Positions 7,283 to 30,410 of a stretch of DNA of 42,030 nucleotides are shown in pieces (position 1 is the stretch's first letter; each line of letters begins with the position of its first letter). The stretch covers positions 1-42,030 of the forward strand of contig PEVX01000025.1 in assembly GCA_002780285.1 (NCBI GenBank), in the 5' to 3' direction. The notes beneath the pieces are model-generated. The model was given only the letters and a program-made list of their open reading frames with translations, made no database searches and was not told the DNA's origin. Source of the stretch: Candidatus Pacearchaeota archaeon CG06_land_8_20_14_3_00_35_12. Lineage in GTDB: Archaea; Nanobdellota; Nanobdellia; Pacearchaeales; PEVX01. The translations under genes were made by a program, and so were the position numbers.

Positions 7283-7777
7283 CTATTTCAGGATAACTAT
7301 GTTTGTCATGCCTCTTCTTTTTCTCTCAATAATCTGCTGTCCTTCTAATCTGTCAAGCAATCTTGAAACTTTGACTTTGTCAAAGCCGGATTTTTCAACA
7401 AGCTCGCTTTGGAACATTGCTCCTTTAGATTCTAGAATGAGATTAACCAATTTTTTCTCTTCAGATGCCAGCTTTGGCAAAATCTTGCTGTAATCTTTCT
7501 TTTTTTCAGAAATTTTTACTTTTTCTCTTATCTTCTTTATGATTTCGACTTTTTCTTGGCCGAAGAAGATTAAATAAACACTTAGAGCCAAAAGAATTGT
7601 AATAAAAATCCAACTAATATTTGTTTGATATTTGATTGCACTATACATAGGGCATGTTTCGCCCATCGTGCAAGATGCTATTGATATTTCTTTTATAGCA
7701 TTGTTGAATGAATATATTATCAATATAAATATAAAAGTGATTATTGCTAAAATTATTCCAACTATTTTGTTTTTCAT
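7283..7777 (-). CDS. Membrane-anchored winged-helix regulator (MarR/DUF7343-like)
   Basis: Two TM segments followed by 'EEKKLVNLILESKGAMFQSELVEKSGFDKVKVSRLLDRLEGQQIIERKRRGMTNIVIL'. Confidence 0.75.
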   Translation of the reverse strand: MKNKIVGIILAIITFIFILIIYSFNNAIKEISIASCTMGETCPMYSAIKYQTNISWIFITILLALSVYLIFFGQEKVEIIKKIREKVKISEKKKDYSKILPKLASEEKKLVNLILESKGAMFQSELVEKSGFDKVKVSRLLDRLEGQQIIERKRRGMTNIVILK

Positions 7778-9309
7778 TTTCTTTTTTTCTTTAAATAGTC
7801 TTTTATTGCTGCCCGCAGGGCATCCTGCGCAAGATGACTGCAGTGCTCTTTTATTGGAGGAAGCTTTCCAAGGGCTTTTGAAACATCTTTGCTCTGGACT
7901 TTCATGGCTTCCTGCAAAGTTTTTCCTTTTGCGAGGTCTGTTATCATGCTTGAGGTTGCAACCGCCGCTACACAGCCAAATGTCTTGAACTTGATGTCTT
8001 TGATAATTTCATGGCCTTTTTTGTTCTTTGCGACTTTGATATAAACCCACATCACATCTCCGCAATTATGAAGGCAAAATGCCTCTGAAACAAAAGAATG
8101 TGAGCTGTTCACTTCAAGATTGTTTACTTTTCCCTGATAAGCAATAATTTCTTTATTTGTAATTGGAGTATAAAGATAATTTTCATCAAACCATGATTTA
8201 ATAGCTTCATGGGATTTTGGAGAATATATTGTTCCTAATATATCGCATAGTCTTGTTAGCGAATCTCTTTGTCCAATATATATTCTATGGGCTTTTTTAT
8301 GCTTAACCCCCCTAATTTTTCTTGCTTTATCTTCATAAATTGAAGGAACAATTTTCTGTCTTAACAGAAGAATTTTAATTTGCTGAGCTAGTTGATAAGA
8401 AATAGTGGCATAGCCCGCTCTTGGACTGTTCCTTTTTAAATTAATGTATCCATCTCCTTTCCATAAGCCAAAAATCAATGATTTTTGTTTTTCTTTTGGG
8501 AGACTCATAATAAAATCTGGAATTTTTTTATATTCTGCGCCATTCCCAAATAACTTCTTAAACCATCTTGCTATTTTGGTACTATATAAAAAAACTTGCG
8601 CTGTTTTCACTTTTGAATTTTCTTTAAGCTTAACATCTATGCCAAATAAATTTTTACATATTTGTTTAATATCTTCAATAATATCTTTTTCTTCAATATT
8701 TAATGTAAATGAAATATAGGTTTTGCATGGTTTATCTTGAATATTCCCTTCTGAGAGGAAGTACCCAAATAGTTTCAACAAATCAGAATTAAGAGAAACT
8801 TTATTTGGAATTTCATTGCTTTTAAAATCATATTTTGGCTTTGGAATATTGATATTTAAAAATTCAATGTCTTTTTCTTTTTTTAAAATTGGATACAAAA
8901 TTATATCCCCTTTCTTTAAGTCTTCTGCATGATACCAAGAAGGAATAACCTTTCTTTTCCCATAATTTCTTAGATACTTATCTCCTTTTGGCATGTGCAT
9001 AGCATAAATTAGATGTTCTGGAGTCAAATTTATTTTTCCGAGATTATTTTTCAGCATTAGAATATCTCCCTTATATCCTCTAGATGAAATCTTTATGATC
9101 TCTTCATAATTTCCAGTATGGGTTAGAACTCTTTCTTTTTCTTTTATTTTAGATATCTCTACATTATCAGAATTCTTATGGATTTTTTCTTGTGGTAACA
9201 GACAGATAGGATTTCCGACTTTCCCTACTCCATCAGCATTTTTTATTTCGCCGATATTGTGGGGATGCAGAAAAGTTTTCATGACTTTTTTGCTGTATTC
9301 AAATGCCAT
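7774..9309 (-). CDS. iscU: IscU/NifU-type Fe-S scaffold containing an in-frame intein
   Basis: N-extein 'FLHPHNIGEIKNADGVGKVGNPI', C-extein 'CGDVMWVYIKV...FKTFGCVAAVATSSMITDLAKGKTLQEA...IKEHCSHLAQDALRAAIKDY'; removal of codons 36-415 restores a 131-aa IscU with three conserved Cys. Confidence 0.93.
   Translation of the reverse strand: MAFEYSKKVMKTFLHPHNIGEIKNADGVGKVGNPICLLPQEKIHKNSDNVEISKIKEKERVLTHTGNYEEIIKISSRGYKGDILMLKNNLGKINLTPEHLIYAMHMPKGDKYLRNYGKRKVIPSWYHAEDLKKGDIILYPILKKEKDIEFLNINIPKPKYDFKSNEIPNKVSLNSDLLKLFGYFLSEGNIQDKPCKTYISFTLNIEEKDIIEDIKQICKNLFGIDVKLKENSKVKTAQVFLYSTKIARWFKKLFGNGAEYKKIPDFIMSLPKEKQKSLIFGLWKGDGYINLKRNSPRAGYATISYQLAQQIKILLLRQKIVPSIYEDKARKIRGVKHKKAHRIYIGQRDSLTRLCDILGTIYSPKSHEAIKSWFDENYLYTPITNKEIIAYQGKVNNLEVNSSHSFVSEAFCLHNCGDVMWVYIKVAKNKKGHEIIKDIKFKTFGCVAAVATSSMITDLAKGKTLQEAMKVQSKDVSKALGKLPPIKEHCSHLAQDALRAAIKDYLKKKRK
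8065..9204 (-). other. Intein (380 aa) with LAGLIDADG-type homing endonuclease domain, inserted before the Cys of GNPxCGD in IscU
   Basis: Cys1 start 'CLLPQEKI', block B-like 'LTPEHLIYA', dodecapeptide-like 'LFGYFLSEGNI' and 'IFGLWKGDGYI', C-terminal 'VNNLEVNSSHSFVSEAFCLHN' followed by Cys+1. Confidence 0.93.
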
Positions 9310-9565: not shown

Positions 9566-11764
9566 TTAAATTTTTAATTCTTTTCTTTTATTTTCAATAT
9601 GTTCTATAATGGCTTTGGCTGCTTCTTTCGGACTTTCTCCATTAAGCACCTTGCCGCCAGTGATTTTTTCAAGATCTTTTGTGAGGACTTTTGTAACCCA
9701 AGGTGCGCCTGCAATCCATAATGGTGGATTTATGTGGACAGCAATGCCATGCGCTAATGCATTAGTGCCTATAGAAACTGCTTTTTCTGTCACAAGTTCA
9801 GGAGCACTTGCCGCTATTGGAAGTTTGCTTATTGGAATTTTTGTATAATTTGAAATTTCACTAACAAGGTTGATTATTCTGCTGTTGTCTACGCAAGAAC
9901 CCATATGCAGTACTGGAGGTAATGAAGGCAAATCATTTGCTTTGCCTATTGCTTCAAGAACTGCTTTCAATTTGTTTCCGCAATATTTTACTGCTTCTGG
10001 TTTCATAAGCCCTTCTTGAGCAGATGCATGCGCTATGCAGCCAGTTGTTACAACGAGAATATTTTCTTTCAAAAGTTCCTTGATTAAAGTTTCCGCAAAT
10101 TTTTTTCCTCTTAATTTTGGATTTCTGCAGCCAATTATTGCAACTATGCCCTTTATATTTCCTGATTTAATATTATCAACAAGAGGATTTAGGGGCTCTT
10201 TTTTATTTAACTTGCCTAATGCTTCTATTATTTGTTCAACGCTAAAACCGCTATAAAGCTCTGTTTTCTCCTTTGGAATCAGTACTTTTGCTTTGTTTCT
10301 GTTTTTGAAATTATCTATGGCAATTTTAACAATTTTTTCCGCGATTTTGTCTGCATCTTCAATCTTGAAAGGAATATGCAATGCTCCTGGCATTTTCGCA
10401 ATCATCGTTGTGATAAGTTTTGTATGATAGCAGCTTGCAACTGCTGCAAGAGAAGGATAAATGCATTGAGCATCAACAATCATTGCTTCGACAGCTCCTG
10501 TGACAAGAACAAGCTCTGACTGGACTGTATGAGCAGTTAGCGCAATTCCATGCCGCTCAGTTAATTCATTTCCTGTACAGCAAACTCCCACTATATTAAT
10601 TCCCTTTGCGCCCTGTTTCAAAGCTTCTTTTTCAAGCTTCTTGCTCCATTCTAGAATTTTTTCGCTGAGCAAAGGAATATGGCCGTGCATAGCAATATTA
10701 ACAAAATCAGTTTTAAGCGTGCCGAGATTGGCTTCTGCTTTAATCAAATGAGGAGTACCAAATAAAATATCCTGCATGTCTGTTGCCATTCTTAATCCTG
10801 CATAGCCATCGACAAGGCCTAGCTTAAGGCATTGTAATAGCAAGGACCTAGGATCAGTGTCATTGCCCATTGTTGTTGCATGCATACTTCTAGTAGTTTC
10901 AATGTCTGCATTTTCAGGTAAAATGTCAATTTTTTTCCATAATTCTTGCAGATAATTTGGAGCATTTATTTTCAGCCAGTTTAGGTAGCTTCCTTCACTC
11001 CTGTGAAAAACTCCGTGCTGTCGTCTAAAATCTTCAAATGCTTCAAGAGCAACATTAACTGCTGTTTCATTCAAGTTTTTTGATTTCTTACCAAGCTTTT
11101 TTTCAATTTGGTTTAATTTTTCTTTGTCTTTAACAGAATAGGCTTTTGTTTTTCCTTCTCCTACTTTTAAAAGGGTAAGTGCATTTTCTCTTGCATGCTC
11201 AACATGGCAGCAAGCTCCTGCGCTTATCGTTCTTAGTAAATTGCGCGCTGCAATAACATCAGCTGTTGCGCCGCAAACTCCTGTCGCTGCTCTGGGAGTT
11301 ATTCTACAAGGACCCATATTGCAGTTTTTGCAGCAAATTCCGCTATATCCAAAAAAGCATTGCGGACGTTGCGCTTCAAAACGATCAAGAACAAAACTTG
11401 CATTATCTTTTTTTGCTTTAGCAGCAAGTGATTTATTGACCCAGCTTTCAAGCTCTTTGGTTTTCACAGCTCCGAATTTTTTTTCGTAATCTTTATCAAA
11501 GAAAAGGTTGCATAAACAATGACCCTGGTCTTTAATCTCTTGCTTATGATAGATGCAAGGGCATACTATGATTCTGTCTTCTTCAAAATTGCCTGTCACA
11601 ATACGGCAAGGGCAGAAACGGAAGCCATATTTATCCTCGTTCTTTTTCAGACCTTTGATAACATAACTCAGCTGCTTTTTATTTTTATTAAGTGCAAAAC
11701 CAGCTTTTTTTGCATATTCTTTTGAAAATTTATAAATTTCTTGCTCTTTCATTTTCTTTTTCAT
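9566..11764 (-). CDS. cooS: Anaerobic Ni-Fe-S carbon monoxide dehydrogenase catalytic subunit with N-terminal FTR catalytic-type domain
   Basis: N-term CPC-x14-CPC-x12-CLC; CODH 'CFFGYSGICCKNCNMGPCRITP...GVCGA' D/B clusters; C-cluster motifs 'AMHGHIP', 'GVCCTGNELTERHG', 'VDAQCIYPSL', 'IIGCRNPKL', 'TTGCIAHASAQEG', 'HMGSCVDNSRI'. Confidence 0.95.
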   Translation of the reverse strand: MKKKMKEQEIYKFSKEYAKKAGFALNKNKKQLSYVIKGLKKNEDKYGFRFCPCRIVTGNFEEDRIIVCPCIYHKQEIKDQGHCLCNLFFDKDYEKKFGAVKTKELESWVNKSLAAKAKKDNASFVLDRFEAQRPQCFFGYSGICCKNCNMGPCRITPRAATGVCGATADVIAARNLLRTISAGACCHVEHARENALTLLKVGEGKTKAYSVKDKEKLNQIEKKLGKKSKNLNETAVNVALEAFEDFRRQHGVFHRSEGSYLNWLKINAPNYLQELWKKIDILPENADIETTRSMHATTMGNDTDPRSLLLQCLKLGLVDGYAGLRMATDMQDILFGTPHLIKAEANLGTLKTDFVNIAMHGHIPLLSEKILEWSKKLEKEALKQGAKGINIVGVCCTGNELTERHGIALTAHTVQSELVLVTGAVEAMIVDAQCIYPSLAAVASCYHTKLITTMIAKMPGALHIPFKIEDADKIAEKIVKIAIDNFKNRNKAKVLIPKEKTELYSGFSVEQIIEALGKLNKKEPLNPLVDNIKSGNIKGIVAIIGCRNPKLRGKKFAETLIKELLKENILVVTTGCIAHASAQEGLMKPEAVKYCGNKLKAVLEAIGKANDLPSLPPVLHMGSCVDNSRIINLVSEISNYTKIPISKLPIAASAPELVTEKAVSIGTNALAHGIAVHINPPLWIAGAPWVTKVLTKDLEKITGGKVLNGESPKEAAKAIIEHIENKRKELKI

Positions 11765-17728: not shown

Positions 17729-18685
17729 ATGAAAACCAATGTTTCTTCAGAGCTTAAGAAAAAGCATTATGGCTTATTTGGAAATGCAGGAACAGAGGTA
17801 TGCTTGTGGACAAAAAAAGCCCTGAGGAACGAGGATGTTTGCTACAAGCAGAAATTTTATGGAATTCCATGCCATAGATGCATGCAGTTCTCTCCTTTGA
17901 TAGCATGCAATCAAAACTGCCTTTTCTGCTGGCGCCCAACAGAGATAATGCATTCTGGAAAAATTTCTGGAAAAATTGAAGAGCCCGAAAAAATAATTGA
18001 GAATTTAATTGAAGAAAGAAGGAAGCTGCTTACAGGATTTGGGGCAAACAAAAAAAACAGGAAAAAATGGCAGGAAGCTTTGAAACCCTGTCATTTTGCG
18101 ATAAGTCTTATTGGAGAGCCTACGCTTTATCCAAAACTGCCCGAACTTATGAGTTTGTTAAAACAAAGGCCTGAAACCAAAACAATTTTCATTGTTTCAA
18201 ATGGGCAGAATCCTGAAATGCTTTTGAAGTTGAAAAAAAAGAATGCTTTGCCGACTCAAATGTATTTATCAATGAATGCGCCGGGCGAGAAACTTTTCAG
18301 GGAAATCTGCAGGCCATGCTCTGACAGAGCATGGAAAATTTATTTGAAATCATTGAAAATATTGAAAAGTCTGCGATGCAGGAAAGTTATCCGAATGACA
18401 ATAATCAAAGGATTAAATGACAACTATGAATTTTTGCCAGAGTATGCTAGGCTGATTAGACTTGCAGAGCCTGATTTTGTTGAGGTAAAGGCGTACATGA
18501 GGCTTGGATACAACAGGCAGTCTTTTCTCTGGGAAAATATGCCTTCGCTTAAAGATATTGAAAAATTTTCTGAAAAGCTTTTGAAAGAACTGAAAAACTT
18601 CAAAAAAGCCGATAAAAACCGGCTTTCAAGAATAGTTCTTTTGAAAAATAAAAAAACCAAGTTTAGACAGAAAATTTTTGATTAG
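17729..18685 (+). CDS. taw1: 4-demethylwyosine synthase TYW1/Taw1-type radical SAM enzyme
   Basis: 'CHRCMQFSPLIACNQNCLFCWRP', 'FAISLIGEPTLYPKLPELM', 'MTIIKGLNDN'. Confidence 0.92.
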   Translation: MKTNVSSELKKKHYGLFGNAGTEVCLWTKKALRNEDVCYKQKFYGIPCHRCMQFSPLIACNQNCLFCWRPTEIMHSGKISGKIEEPEKIIENLIEERRKLLTGFGANKKNRKKWQEALKPCHFAISLIGEPTLYPKLPELMSLLKQRPETKTIFIVSNGQNPEMLLKLKKKNALPTQMYLSMNAPGEKLFREICRPCSDRAWKIYLKSLKILKSLRCRKVIRMTIIKGLNDNYEFLPEYARLIRLAEPDFVEVKAYMRLGYNRQSFLWENMPSLKDIEKFSEKLLKELKNFKKADKNRLSRIVLLKNKKTKFRQKIFD

Positions 18686-19632
18686 ATAAAGCTCTTTTTT
18701 TCCTGTTCTGTCTTTGCTAATTGCTCAAATGTTGAATTGACTGTTTTTTGCCATATTTTCTGTCTTTCTTTGTTGATATCTTCTTGTTTCCATCTTCTCA
18801 TCATAGAATCAACATAAGGCTTGAATTTTTCTCGCTTTGTGAAGCTTTTGACTATGTATAAAGGAAGTGTTTTTGTTCCGACTTCAATTGCTTTTGTTTT
18901 TTCAACCTGAATAACTCCAGAAACAGGATTATATGTGCTTTGGCTGATTAAAACCTCTCCTGCTGCAGCGCGCTCTGCAACTCTCGATGAAATCTGTGTT
19001 GTGCTTTGCAATGGAGTATATCTTAATTTTCTATCAAAATCCAGTCGCATTATTGCAGAGCCTGTATGAATTCCAAATCCCGTTTTGATTAGATTTCTTT
19101 TTGTTTCATCGCAGATTTCAAGTGCAGATCTAATTGCCGCAAGCTCATGCTCCTGAGTGCCTGTTTTTTCTCCGAACAGAACTAAAACATCTTTGTTCTG
19201 CTGCAGGCTTCTGATTCCTCTGTGCTTTTCAATAACAGTGTCTATTTTTTGCATCATAACCCTATGTGCCTCTTTTCTTCCAGCAGCTTCTGTTTCAATA
19301 TTTTTAAAGTCAATATACAAAGCAGTCAGACTTTCCTCGCTTCCCTGCATTATTACAGAAGGAATAGCTTCTCTTACTGTTGTGATTCCAACACGGGCTG
19401 CTGCAAGAGGTTTAAGTGATTCAGGCATTTTTACAATCTCAACCTCTGCTGGCTCTTCAACATGATATATTCTTGGCTGAATTGAAATATATCTTACTTC
19501 TTTTTTTCTTGTCAGATAATATATGATCAGAATTGCGATTATTGTCGCAATGATTATTGTGGCTATGATTGGGTCTCTAAGAAAATTTTCTTTTCCCATA
19601 TTAAAACCAGAAACTACATTGCTTGAAACCAT
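18682..19632 (-). CDS. Membrane-anchored class III adenylate/guanylate cyclase-like domain protein (probably degenerate)
   Basis: N-term TM; 'ALYIDFKNIE', 'NKDVLVLFGEK', 'GFGIHTGSAIMRLDFDRKLRYTPLQSTTQISSRVAERAAAGEVLISQSTY'. Confidence 0.7.
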   Translation of the reverse strand: MVSSNVVSGFNMGKENFLRDPIIATIIIATIIAILIIYYLTRKKEVRYISIQPRIYHVEEPAEVEIVKMPESLKPLAAARVGITTVREAIPSVIMQGSEESLTALYIDFKNIETEAAGRKEAHRVMMQKIDTVIEKHRGIRSLQQNKDVLVLFGEKTGTQEHELAAIRSALEICDETKRNLIKTGFGIHTGSAIMRLDFDRKLRYTPLQSTTQISSRVAERAAAGEVLISQSTYNPVSGVIQVEKTKAIEVGTKTLPLYIVKSFTKREKFKPYVDSMMRRWKQEDINKERQKIWQKTVNSTFEQLAKTEQEKKSFI

Positions 19633-25761: not shown

Positions 25762-27213
25762 TTATTTATGCCCAAACCAAAACTTGACTTTTTCTTTTGG
25801 ATTGAAGCAGCAATATCCAATACCTTTGAAGAAAACAATCTGCCCTTCTTTTAATTTTTTCATTTTTAAGTCTGTTTTTCCAAGAATAACACTCGCGTCT
25901 GGCATCAGTATTGAAACAGAATCTTTTGTCTTTATTCTCTGCCTCTCAAAAGATGCGCCTATTGACTTGTCTCTCAGGATTTCTCTGTTAAAATTACTTA
26001 AAACATCAAAATAATCTTCTTTTGAAATAACTTTGTCAACAGGGCTTATTCCTCTTTCTTCAGCCATATTTGCAAATGCCTGAGCTCGAAATCCTCTTTT
26101 TCTTAATGAGGCTATGAATGGAATGCGGATGTCATCCCATCCTGAAAATTTTCCCTGCTTGATTTTTTCTTTTGTTTTTGTGCATGAGATTTCCAAATCT
26201 GTGAATTTGTATCTGCCAAGGAAAAAACTTAATGGCGGAGTTAAATTGAAAACGCGCATCATCATTTCCTGCCTTTTTGCATTGTCCATATGCTCTTTTG
26301 CTCTGATTACATGAGTTGACTTGAACTCAATGTCATCAACAGTGACGCAGAGATTCATCAAAGGCCAGACTCTGTATTTGTTTTTTTGCCTTGGATGTTC
26401 TTTTGTGTTTATTCTTGCAAGAGGAAAATCTCTTAATGCTGGATTAGGGTCATTCAAATCAGACTTGAATCTCAGGACAGCTTGCCCTTCTTTATAGCCT
26501 TTGCCAGATTTATCCAACATTTTTTTCCATCTTTCCATGTTTTTTTCTTTTAGAAGATTTCTGCAAGGGCATGCTTTTTCTTTTTCAATTAATTCTTTAA
26601 ATTTCTCAGGATTGCAGTCGCAGACATAAGCTGCATTTTTTTCTATAAGCTTTTCAGCAAAGTCATAATATTTCTGCATCCTGTCTGACTGGCAGTATGA
26701 TTGAAAGACATTTCCAAAAAGCCAGTCAGATTCTTCTGGAATCATTTTATATGCATCAGGATCAATATTTTCAGGATTTGTGTCTTCAATCCTTATGTAG
26801 AACTTGCCCTTGTATTTTTTTGCATAAAGTGAATTCGGCATTCCTGTTGCAGCATGTCCTATATGCAAAGGCCCGCTCGGAGAAGGGGAAAATCTTGTGA
26901 TGAACTTGCCTTCAACAGCGTTCGGCAGGCTTGCAAGCCCCTCTCTGATTTCTCTGTGATGCACTAATTTCTCCAATTTATCCAGCTCTTGTTTTTGTTC
27001 ATCAGGAGATAAAGAATTGACTTTTTTGATAATCTGATTTATGAGAGGCATGACTTCCCTGACATTTTCTTTTTTCAAGCCCTCTACAAATAACGGTGAA
27101 AGAACCGAGCCAGCTTGGGCCTTGCCTTCGTGCTCGACCGCATTTTTCAGGGCATATGCATAGATTTTTTTCTCAAAATCCCTGCCCAACTCCTTGTTGA
27201 AATTCGTCGCCAT
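25762..27213 (-). CDS. gltX: Glutamyl-tRNA synthetase
   Basis: 'TRFSPSPSGPLHIGHAATG', 'YIRIEDTNPENID', 'KFSGWDDIRIPFIASLRKRGF'. Confidence 0.93.
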   Translation of the reverse strand: MATNFNKELGRDFEKKIYAYALKNAVEHEGKAQAGSVLSPLFVEGLKKENVREVMPLINQIIKKVNSLSPDEQKQELDKLEKLVHHREIREGLASLPNAVEGKFITRFSPSPSGPLHIGHAATGMPNSLYAKKYKGKFYIRIEDTNPENIDPDAYKMIPEESDWLFGNVFQSYCQSDRMQKYYDFAEKLIEKNAAYVCDCNPEKFKELIEKEKACPCRNLLKEKNMERWKKMLDKSGKGYKEGQAVLRFKSDLNDPNPALRDFPLARINTKEHPRQKNKYRVWPLMNLCVTVDDIEFKSTHVIRAKEHMDNAKRQEMMMRVFNLTPPLSFFLGRYKFTDLEISCTKTKEKIKQGKFSGWDDIRIPFIASLRKRGFRAQAFANMAEERGISPVDKVISKEDYFDVLSNFNREILRDKSIGASFERQRIKTKDSVSILMPDASVILGKTDLKMKKLKEGQIVFFKGIGYCCFNPKEKVKFWFGHK

Positions 27214-27253: not shown

Positions 27254-28675
27254 ATGGCAAAGGGAAATATGGGCTTAGCTGGAAAACTTGCCGCGGGAAT
27301 TGCAGCAGGAGTAACTATTTTGTCACTTTATTCTGGAATTGCAAAAGCGCAGGAAACAGAGGCAAGCAATGCAGCCAGCGAAACAATTTCTTTCTCAATA
27401 ATGCCTTCTGATACATCTTCTCTTGATTCTTTTGTAAGTAATTTAAGCTTTGATACAGAAGTGACGCGAATATATGGCACCCTTGTTTCAAGTTATGTTA
27501 AATATTCACAAGCTGAAACAGAAACTGCACCTCAAATAGAAATAGAGACAGAAAAAGAAATTCCAGAAACTTCTCCAATTTCTGTGCCTTCTATGCCAAT
27601 TGTTCCTGAACCTGAATATATTCCTGAATTTAAAGAAAAAGAAATTTCTCCAGCGCCTGTTTCTATTTTTCCTGAGAAAAAAACCTTTGTTGATAAAACA
27701 CGCTTTTCATTGCCTTTGAAAATTCCGGGCTTAATGTTTCAATTGGAAACACGATCAATAAATCTTGAAAAATTGCTGAGGTCTAAACCTGTAGTTAAGA
27801 CAGCCAAGGAAACAAAAACAATTTATGTTCCAATTCAAAAGCCAGAATCAAATATTGAAAATTACGGAAAATTTGAGACGGGTGTTGCTGTTTTGAGCCC
27901 AGAAGATATTTTCAAAGCATTTAATTTTTCCTCAGATGAATCCCGAGTTCTTTTTTTGAAAAAAATGCCAAGGCATCCTCTTGCTCAGAAAGCTGCAAGC
28001 GAGCTGAAGGAAAGAGATATGGATTTCAGGAATAGGGAAATAAAAAATCTTTATTTTGATGATTCAGAAGGGTTTTGGATTGTTGAGGCAAGCCCTTGGT
28101 TTCAGTATAAATATGGCTTCAAAAAGCCCAAGCATTCAAAAGGCCCGACAGAAAGCGGTAAAAAAAGTGCGTATTACTGCGCAAGATTTGTTCAGCAGAC
28201 TTTTTACAGCAATTTTTCTGAAGAAGAATGCAGAAAACTTGGAATTGAAGGACATGTATGGATGATGATTGATTTTTTAAAAGAAAAAAAAGAGATAATT
28301 TATGAGAGAGAGGTAAAAAGCAGCGTTCTATGCAAAAATTTGAGAAAAGAATATCCAAACAAAGAATATTCTGAAATTTTGAAAATGATGGCAGAAGAAA
28401 GAAAGAAAACAGAGGATGAAGTTAGAGCCATGCTTAGGCCAGGAGATATAATTATTGCATGGAATCCTTATTCTCTTTACAAAAAGCACTTAGTCACACA
28501 TTCTGCAATCTATTTAGGAGATGGATATATTATGCAGGACTGGAAGAAAAAGCTAGAGATTATGACTCTTGATGAGCTTTATAGAAGAATTCCAGGAAGA
28601 ATTGATTTTATTGGAAGGCCTGATTTAGCAAAAACATACAAAAAGATAATATTGAGGGATTTTGAGAATAAATAA
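27254..28675 (+). CDS. Secreted NlpC/P60- or CHAP-like cysteine peptidase/amidase-fold protein
   Basis: N-term signal; 'SAYYCARFVQQTF' and 'LRPGDIIIAWNPYSLYKKHLVTHSAIYLGDGYIMQDW' (Cys/His pair). Confidence 0.6.
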   Translation: MAKGNMGLAGKLAAGIAAGVTILSLYSGIAKAQETEASNAASETISFSIMPSDTSSLDSFVSNLSFDTEVTRIYGTLVSSYVKYSQAETETAPQIEIETEKEIPETSPISVPSMPIVPEPEYIPEFKEKEISPAPVSIFPEKKTFVDKTRFSLPLKIPGLMFQLETRSINLEKLLRSKPVVKTAKETKTIYVPIQKPESNIENYGKFETGVAVLSPEDIFKAFNFSSDESRVLFLKKMPRHPLAQKAASELKERDMDFRNREIKNLYFDDSEGFWIVEASPWFQYKYGFKKPKHSKGPTESGKKSAYYCARFVQQTFYSNFSEEECRKLGIEGHVWMMIDFLKEKKEIIYEREVKSSVLCKNLRKEYPNKEYSEILKMMAEERKKTEDEVRAMLRPGDIIIAWNPYSLYKKHLVTHSAIYLGDGYIMQDWKKKLEIMTLDELYRRIPGRIDFIGRPDLAKTYKKIILRDFENK

Positions 28676-28721
28676 AAAGCTTTATAAACGATTTCGGATT
28701 CTGAAATTTTTAATTTCTACG

Positions 28722-29969
28722 ATGAAATTTAAGCTTGAAGAAATTTTGAAAGGTATTGGAACAACTATTTTAGCAGGAGCTTTGGCATTTGCAATCGCAG
28801 GCTCTGCTTATGCTTACAAGTCTGCAAGCAGCAAAGAAAAAACGAGAATAAAAAAAGAAGCACTGCTTCTTGCTGAAAAGCAGGAAAAAGAAAAGACTGA
28901 GAATTTTAATAAAGACTTGGACAATTTCAATAAGAGATTTTTTAGGATTGTTGAAAACGGCGAAATTGGAAATTCTTTGGAAAGATTTCAGAATATAAAG
29001 AAAGAGTATAATGCAGAAACAAATCCAGTAAATCCTCTTTATTTGAAAACAAAAGATGCTGTGATTGAATGCGCAAAAAAAGTAAATGAGCTCAGACAAC
29101 TTTATTTGAAGTCAAATGGTGAGATTGATTCTCCCAAGTTTTATTCAGAATGCAATCAGCTTGCTCAGAATTATGTAAAAATGGTTTCAGAGCCTGAAAC
29201 CCAAGTAGCAAAAACAGAGATAATTGTTGCAAAAGCCAATGTGGTTGAAAAAAAAGAAGCAAAAATCATTCAACCATCAAAGGAAATAAAATTGGCAAAG
29301 GCAGACGCGACTGTAATTGTTAAAAAAATAGTTCCTGCGCAGATAAAGAAAAAATCTGTTAAATTAATAGTGAGATTGCCTGAGAAAAAAGTAGAATCTT
29401 ATGATGCTGCGACATTGAAGAATCTTGAAAAAGCCTACCCATATTTCAAAACAGCATGCCAAAAAACAAAGCTTCCAGACCATTTATTTGATGAATATGT
29501 GGGCTTGGGCTGGACTGAAAGCTGGTTTGAGGTCGGAGCCAAGGGTTCTGCTGGAGAAAGAGGATATCATCAAGTTATGCCTAGCACATATGCACTTTAT
29601 TACAAAAATGAAAAGCTTAGGAACAAGTACGAACTTGTGCCATGGTATCATATTGAAAATTTTCCCAGAGATTCTGAATCTATGAAAAGCCTTGAAATTG
29701 TTGCTGCGCTTCATTTCAGCTCAAGAATTAAAAAAAATAAAAAGCATTCTGATGCAAGAGAAATAATCCTGAGATATAATTGGGGAAATGGTAGAGTTGA
29801 CAGGGCTGTTTCGCAATTTGGAAATTTTGAGAATTTATGGAGTCATTTAAAGAAAAAAGAGACAGACAAGGACAAGAAGGCGTATTATTATGTTATTTAC
29901 ACCTTGAGATACAAGGAGAAATGTGAAGATAAAATAAAAGAGCTTGAAAAAACTTCAATTGGATTGTAA
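28722..29969 (+). CDS. Secreted lysozyme-like/SLT lytic transglycosylase-domain protein
   Basis: Signal 'GTTILAGALAFAIAGSAYA'; 'DEYVGLGWTESWFEVGAKGSAGERGYHQVMPSTYALYY' resembles SLT ES/GxxGxxQxxPsT. Confidence 0.75.
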   Translation: MKFKLEEILKGIGTTILAGALAFAIAGSAYAYKSASSKEKTRIKKEALLLAEKQEKEKTENFNKDLDNFNKRFFRIVENGEIGNSLERFQNIKKEYNAETNPVNPLYLKTKDAVIECAKKVNELRQLYLKSNGEIDSPKFYSECNQLAQNYVKMVSEPETQVAKTEIIVAKANVVEKKEAKIIQPSKEIKLAKADATVIVKKIVPAQIKKKSVKLIVRLPEKKVESYDAATLKNLEKAYPYFKTACQKTKLPDHLFDEYVGLGWTESWFEVGAKGSAGERGYHQVMPSTYALYYKNEKLRNKYELVPWYHIENFPRDSESMKSLEIVAALHFSSRIKKNKKHSDAREIILRYNWGNGRVDRAVSQFGNFENLWSHLKKKETDKDKKAYYYVIYTLRYKEKCEDKIKELEKTSIGL

Positions 29970-29972
29970 TTG

Positions 29973-30410
29973 CTATCTCTTTTTCTTTTTGAATAAAGCA
30001 ATTAACAGGATTATCGCTCCAGCGATATTGCTGATGTCGGCGAGATTGAATGCAGCTGAGTTTTGAATGAATGAAAATTTGATGAAATCAATGACAAAGC
30101 CAAGGCAAACTCTGTTCATGGTGTTCGCAACTGTTCCTGCAAAAATCAATGCAAGCGCAATCTGCATTGGCCTGCTGACACTTCCGTAGAAATACAGGAT
30201 TAATACAATTACAATTAATGCAATTGCAATAAGAAGAAAGTCAAATCCCTGCAAAATCCCAAAAGCCGCGCCTTTGTTTAGTATCGGCTGCGAGCAGAGG
30301 AAAAGAAAACAGCCTCTGACATTTACAAAATAATTTTTCGTTATGAAATCCACGAGAAAAATAATCCCTGCAAGGATAAACATGAACAAATAGCCAAACC
30401 TCTTTTTCAT
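29973..30410 (-). CDS. lspA: Signal peptidase II (lipoprotein signal peptidase)
   Basis: 'DFITKNYF', 'LNKGAAFGI', 'AGTVANTMNRVCLGFVIDFIKF', 'AAFNLADISNIAG' with both catalytic Asp. Confidence 0.88.
   Translation of the reverse strand: MKKRFGYLFMFILAGIIFLVDFITKNYFVNVRGCFLFLCSQPILNKGAAFGILQGFDFLLIAIALIVIVLILYFYGSVSRPMQIALALIFAGTVANTMNRVCLGFVIDFIKFSFIQNSAAFNLADISNIAGAIILLIALFKKKKR

Follow-up and report, generated by a model that had tools for sequence, protein, structure and literature searches.

Does a pair of adjacent genes for exported, peptidoglycan-hydrolase-like proteins in an archaeon serve to cut murein and, if so, whose murein? The pair is carried by contig PEVX01000025.1 (contig 25) of assembly GCA_002780285.1, from Candidatus Pacearchaeota archaeon CG06_land_8_20_14_3_00_35_12, a 566-kb draft genome of 37 contigs that is 87.6% complete; the window analysed here is this contig at its full length of 42,030 nucleotides. 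The first-pass annotation had taken the DNA to be probably archaeal. This is borne out by domain matches on the contig, among them the archaea-specific editing domain of a ThrRS and further housekeeping genes of archaeal type, and by a conserved Pacearchaeota gene block around the pair. Judged by its sequence, the DNA is that of a Pacearchaeota-type DPANN archaeon.

The two genes, gene A (P0001, 473 aa, 27254-28675) and gene B (P0002, 415 aa, 28722-29969), lie side by side on the forward strand with an intergenic gap of 46 bp. For gene B the ATG at 28722 was chosen as start over a TTG at 28662, which overlaps gene A, and the gap holds a TATA-box-like archaeal element read from the sequence, CTTTATAAA (28680-28688, +), a possible separate promoter for gene B. 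Both proteins had been described as secreted and, indeed, each starts with a hydrophobic stretch, behind which lies a signal-peptidase I site of the Ala-X-Ala type. On hydropathy, with the cleavage site read from the sequence, the predicted Sec signal peptides span residues 1-32 of gene A (27254-27349, +, cleaved between GIAKA and QE) and residues 1-31 of gene B (28722-28814, +, cleaved between GSAYA and YK). Hence, both products are probably exported via Sec, and both look soluble once the signal peptide is removed. No peptidoglycan-binding domain was recognised in either protein with Pfam and NCBIfam.

In gene A the signal peptide is followed by a Pro/Glu/Lys-rich linker region without Pfam or NCBIfam match (27350-28162, +) and by a predicted NlpC/P60-like catalytic domain at residues 304-455 (28163-28618, +), placed by profile alignment to MepS/Spr, conserved columns and a leave-one-out profile. 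Cys309, His416 and Gln428 are its probable catalytic triad. The order of Cys, His and a polar third residue is the non-permuted NlpC/P60 arrangement, the third position being Gln428 in gene A and Q, E or H among its relatives. Against Pfam NLPC_P60 the protein scores 14.7 bits (E = 0.03) and does not reach the curated cut-off of 23 bits, and for this reason it is labelled "NlpC/P60-like". Against a leave-one-out profile made from the other four relatives it scores E = 3.9e-18, while the best shuffled sequence gave 0.081. A single-sequence AlphaFold model (pLDDT 41) was uninformative.

The relatives of gene A were gathered by a phylum-wide search with a two-row alignment. This subfamily matched in 8 of 371 genomes, a count that includes chance or distant matches, and five rows are convincing, namely the host protein and those of genomes G014, G054, G440 and G467, with Cys, Trp, Asp, Ser, Thr-His and Gly as common columns. 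Compared with solved structures, the profile of these five rows had E. coli MepS/Spr at the top (E = 8e-4), with the Cys and His motifs in register; below it came further C40 enzymes as well as a type VI amidase effector. Furthermore, the C-terminal part of the G467 relative exceeds the NLPC_P60 cut-off on its own, at 23.6 bits. As read from the sequence (L072 / L034), this protein joins a glycosyltransferase-like part to the C-terminal NlpC/P60 domain, a fusion which means that murein is not necessarily the substrate of the subfamily. The earlier description of gene A as NlpC/P60- or CHAP-like is thus best kept in its first half: among solved structures its family profile matches MepS/Spr and further C40 enzymes best, and CHAP is the poorer label, being rejected for lack of a Pfam CHAP match. 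A YaeF-type permuted papain-like fold was rejected as well since Cys309 stands ahead of His416. Three candidate relatives were discarded: L036 and L037, weak profile matches in which His seems to come before Cys as in a permuted fold, and L035, which by eye is no relative. On this sequence comparison, the subfamily is a little-known, divergent archaeal NlpC/P60-like group, and a literature search for NlpC together with DPANN found no paper.

Gene B encodes an SLT (GH23 lytic transglycosylase-like) protein whose predicted SLT domain, at residues 236-394 (29427-29903, +), contains the catalytic-type Glu266, the GERGYHQVMPST motif and the YNWGNGRV motif. The Pfam SLT match (PF01464, residues 261-369) has E = 2.2e-4 and 21.2 bits, against a cut-off of 21.3, and in the genome search with neighbouring in-frame segments it rises to 24.8 bits, above the cut-off. 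The leave-one-out SLT profile of the other archaea in the phylum finds gene B at E = 1.9e-9, the best of 2000 shuffles reaching 0.042. With profiles made from other archaeal proteins only, both proteins thus score far better than their shuffled controls, and the similarity of both is well above chance.

A lysozyme-like/SLT motif with a catalytic-type Glu had been noticed in gene B, and the alignments uphold this. The protein contains the motif GWTESWF...GERGYHQVMPSTYALYY, in which Glu266 corresponds to the SLT catalytic Glu. In alignments with SLT domains, 31 of them viral and 9 archaeal, Glu266 and Ser267 match the catalytic Glu-Ser (ES), and gene B retains all 13 columns invariant among the 31 viral-contig domains, among them Glu266-Ser267, the frame Gly-x-x-Gly-x-x-Gln-x-Met-Pro-x-Thr and Tyr-Asn-x-Gly. 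In the comparison of GERGYHQVMPST with G-x-x-G-L-M-Q-x-M-P-x-T, the G, G, Q, M, P and T are retained and L-M is replaced by Y-H, giving GYHQ where SLT has GLMQ, while in the A-Y-N-x-G motif (YNWGNGRV) the preceding Ala is Arg. An AlphaFold model built from the viral SLT alignment reached a moderate pLDDT of 66, and its best Foldseek matches were MltF, a T7 ejectosome protein, Slt and MltE, the top match to MltF being weak (E about 7e-3, TM about 0.37). A lysozyme-like helical fold is therefore supported by the model but not settled. Structure prediction, which had been proposed as a check on the folds, was accordingly in favour for gene B in part and silent for gene A.

Does the host have murein of its own? 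The Mur ligase middle domain and the penicillin-binding transpeptidase domain were searched for, both searches being positive in bacterial controls, and neither domain was found in the 87.6%-complete genome. This is the outcome of a check for murein synthesis genes that had been suggested earlier; these two markers are missing from the genome as searched, with some doubt left by its incompleteness. As no Mur ligase or transpeptidase was found, a foreign substrate is favoured over an own wall. The first-pass annotation had named bacterial partners or competitors, pseudomurein-like material and surface remodelling as possible targets or uses, all of which stay candidates at sequence level.

The first-pass annotation had also treated murein hydrolases in such an archaeon as a surprise, and this premise does not hold. 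An SLT domain was detected in 168 of the 371 genomes sampled across the phylum, and such proteins have been published (PMC8204110, PMC9723730, PMC12352652). NlpC/P60 at E 1e-3 or better occurs in 29 of 336 genomes of the phylum. As read from the lists, 15 of these 29 also have SLT, against 168 of 371 overall, and this co-occurrence near the background rate means that the two domain types are not generally tied. In another genome of the class, G423, a single 1450-aa frame (L253:4095-8444) holds both NlpC/P60 (E = 1.5e-12, C26:27299-27748) and SLT (E = 1.0e-23, C26:27875-28291) behind an N-terminal membrane segment, which shows at sequence level that the combination exists in the group. Moreover, in two families of the order, membrane-anchored SLT proteins (L067:5001-6095 and L068:4228-5271) each stand beside another membrane-anchored protein that is similar in both, and these may be parts of a surface or secretion apparatus that is conserved. 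Ortholog distribution, also named as a check, hence gives a widespread SLT domain, a rare gene A subfamily and a pair seen between gltX and lspA only here.

The pair is flanked upstream by gltX, glutamyl-tRNA synthetase (25762-27213, -; Pfam tRNA-synt_1c and synteny), and downstream by an lspA-like signal peptidase II gene (29973-30410, -; Pfam Peptidase_A8, E = 1.1e-20, and synteny). The order gltX, lspA, a 504-aa gene, TIM barrel and nucleotidyltransferase is common to relatives, and most of it is also found in many named Pacearchaeota contigs, including one complete chromosome. The stretch between gltX and lspA measures 34 to about 1700 bp in these relatives and is either empty or occupied by other genes. 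Neither gene A nor gene B was found in any of the 80 named loci of relatives examined, and among the loci compared only this one has the pair between gltX and lspA, the host genome being the only one sampled from its own family. Since the pair is seen only here in a block common to relatives, it is either a gain or a survival specific to this lineage, at a site that is conserved. Its codon usage agrees with that of core genes and, as neither codon usage nor GC shows a sign of recent import, the pair does not look newly acquired; a search for mobile-element flanking repeats around the pair gave short, low-quality matches only.

Some other genes of the window may be recorded here. Signal peptidase II is a lipoprotein-processing enzyme that is typically bacterial, and lspA turned up in 16 of the 161 genomes searched in the order. 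On the reverse strand, a NifU/IscU-type iron-sulfur scaffold gene (7774-9309) is apparently split by an intein that carries a LAGLIDADG homing endonuclease. On this strand, too, one protein (9566-11764) combines a prismane/CO dehydrogenase domain with the beta-chain domain of a ferredoxin-thioredoxin reductase, and a membrane-anchored protein has a weak match to an adenylate/guanylate cyclase catalytic domain (18682-19632, E = 1e-5).

The pair was compared with known systems. Murein-like lytic transglycosylase proteins of Pacearchaeota and Woesearchaeota, the largest reaching 3,000 aa, were described by Castelle 2021, where bacterial hosts were proposed (PMC8204110). Gene B shares with them the SLT-type domain, export, the archaeal group and the proposed action on bacterial walls but, unlike these fam00969-type giants, it is a stand-alone, very divergent protein with an NlpC/P60-like neighbour and, at 415 aa, falls outside their size class. 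Predatory Woesearchaeota with GH23 enzymes were proposed by Vigneron 2022 (PMC9723730). Modular hydrolases such as Woldo and Danwoldo, reported in PLoS Biol 2025 from nearly 5% of archaeal genomes and prominent in Nanoarchaeota, are likewise archaeal, secreted and patchily distributed, and the haloarchaeal ones kill bacteria; that survey demanded a wall-binding domain, whereas genes A and B have no recognised one and lie outside its definition (PMC12352652). The bacterial CwlT also pairs a glycan-cutting activity with NlpC/P60, but it does so in a single protein with a PF13702 lysozyme-like domain next to the endopeptidase domain (PMC12542765 and its ref. 23), while here two archaeal proteins and an SLT-type domain are involved. 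Finally, the E. coli murein endopeptidase MepS/Spr (PDB 2k1g), the best solved match of the gene A family profile with aligned Cys and His motifs, is bacterial and has His as third catalytic-type residue where gene A has Gln; gene A further differs by the long stretch inserted between its Cys and its His, and by its 270-residue N-terminal linker region.

Taken together, the reading we favour, and hold to be moderately probable, is that the pair encodes exported peptidoglycan hydrolases with which a seemingly murein-less Pacearchaeota-type archaeon would jointly digest bacterial walls. Gene B, as an SLT/GH23-type lytic transglycosylase, would cut MurNAc-GlcNAc glycan strands using Glu266, and gene A, as an NlpC/P60-type cysteine peptidase, would cut stem peptides using Cys309-His416-Gln428. 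Both enzymes would leave the cell through Sec and together open or digest the walls of contacted bacteria, be these host, prey, competitor or dead biomass. We infer catalysis and cooperation, with bacterial murein as the most likely substrate, from the SLT and NlpC/P60 homology, the export signals, the G423 fusion and the lack of own murein genes among those searched, and killing of bacteria by secreted hydrolases of archaea has been demonstrated in experiments (PMC12352652). Counting against joint murein cutting are the missing binding domain, GYHQ, the score of gene A below the Pfam cut-off and its pLDDT of 41, and also the glycosyltransferase-like fusion, the 87.6% genome completeness and the chance-level overlap of SLT and NlpC/P60.

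The enzymes could instead be directed at the cell itself, trimming its own surface glycans or glycoproteins or opening a passage for a pilus or secretion machine, a task that falls to specialised lytic transglycosylases in bacterial secretion systems. The anchored SLT proteins of related archaea with their similar neighbours, and the membrane segment of the G423 protein, are consistent with such a role. We nevertheless consider it unlikely, given that no recognisable secretion or pilus gene lies beside the pair, that the mature proteins both appear soluble, and that SLT chemistry requires a MurNAc-type substrate, whose synthesis genes were not found in the genome. It also seems rather improbable that the folds are kept without the classical function, gene A being an NlpC/P60-like amidase or acyltransferase on a non-murein substrate and gene B catalytically weak or carbohydrate-binding. 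The weak Pfam scores of both proteins, the replacement of GLMQ by GYHQ and the glycosyltransferase-like fusion would fit this explanation; however, the Cys, His and polar third residue are kept across five divergent gene A relatives and gene B retains every column invariant among the 31 viral-contig SLT domains, which suggests selection on catalysis.

An origin as a virus or prophage lysis pair might be thought of, as phages often carry SLT and NlpC/P60 enzymes and viral SLT domains were easily found. However, no close relative of A or B was confirmed in viral contigs, phages, plasmids or genome contigs, no viral genes were recognised nearby, codon usage is that of core genes and the pair is located in a conserved chromosomal block, so that we regard this origin as highly improbable. 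A misbinned bacterial contig, conceivable in a 37-contig draft assembly, is hardly credible in view of the archaea-specific ThrRS editing domain; moreover, contamination was rejected by synteny, the block on both sides of the pair being common to named Pacearchaeota contigs, including a complete chromosome.

Joint digestion of bacterial walls thus remains the preferred reading, and the pair belongs to a phenomenon that is already known and published, that of murein-hydrolase-like proteins in these archaea. New here are two things: that short stand-alone enzymes of both kinds occur as a pair, and the divergent subfamily to which gene A belongs. Surveys that require a wall-binding domain or Pfam cut-offs would overlook both proteins. 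As short, stand-alone exported enzymes without a recognised binding domain, they lend themselves far better to expression and assay than do the giants known so far, and the bacterial-wall hypothesis therefore becomes directly testable. More tentatively, the pair may be the dedicated two-enzyme kit of an ultra-small archaeon, including an uncharacterised archaeal NlpC/P60-like subfamily, for opening bacterial walls in order to feed on or attach to bacterial hosts, and it bears on whether DPANN archaea live on bacteria.
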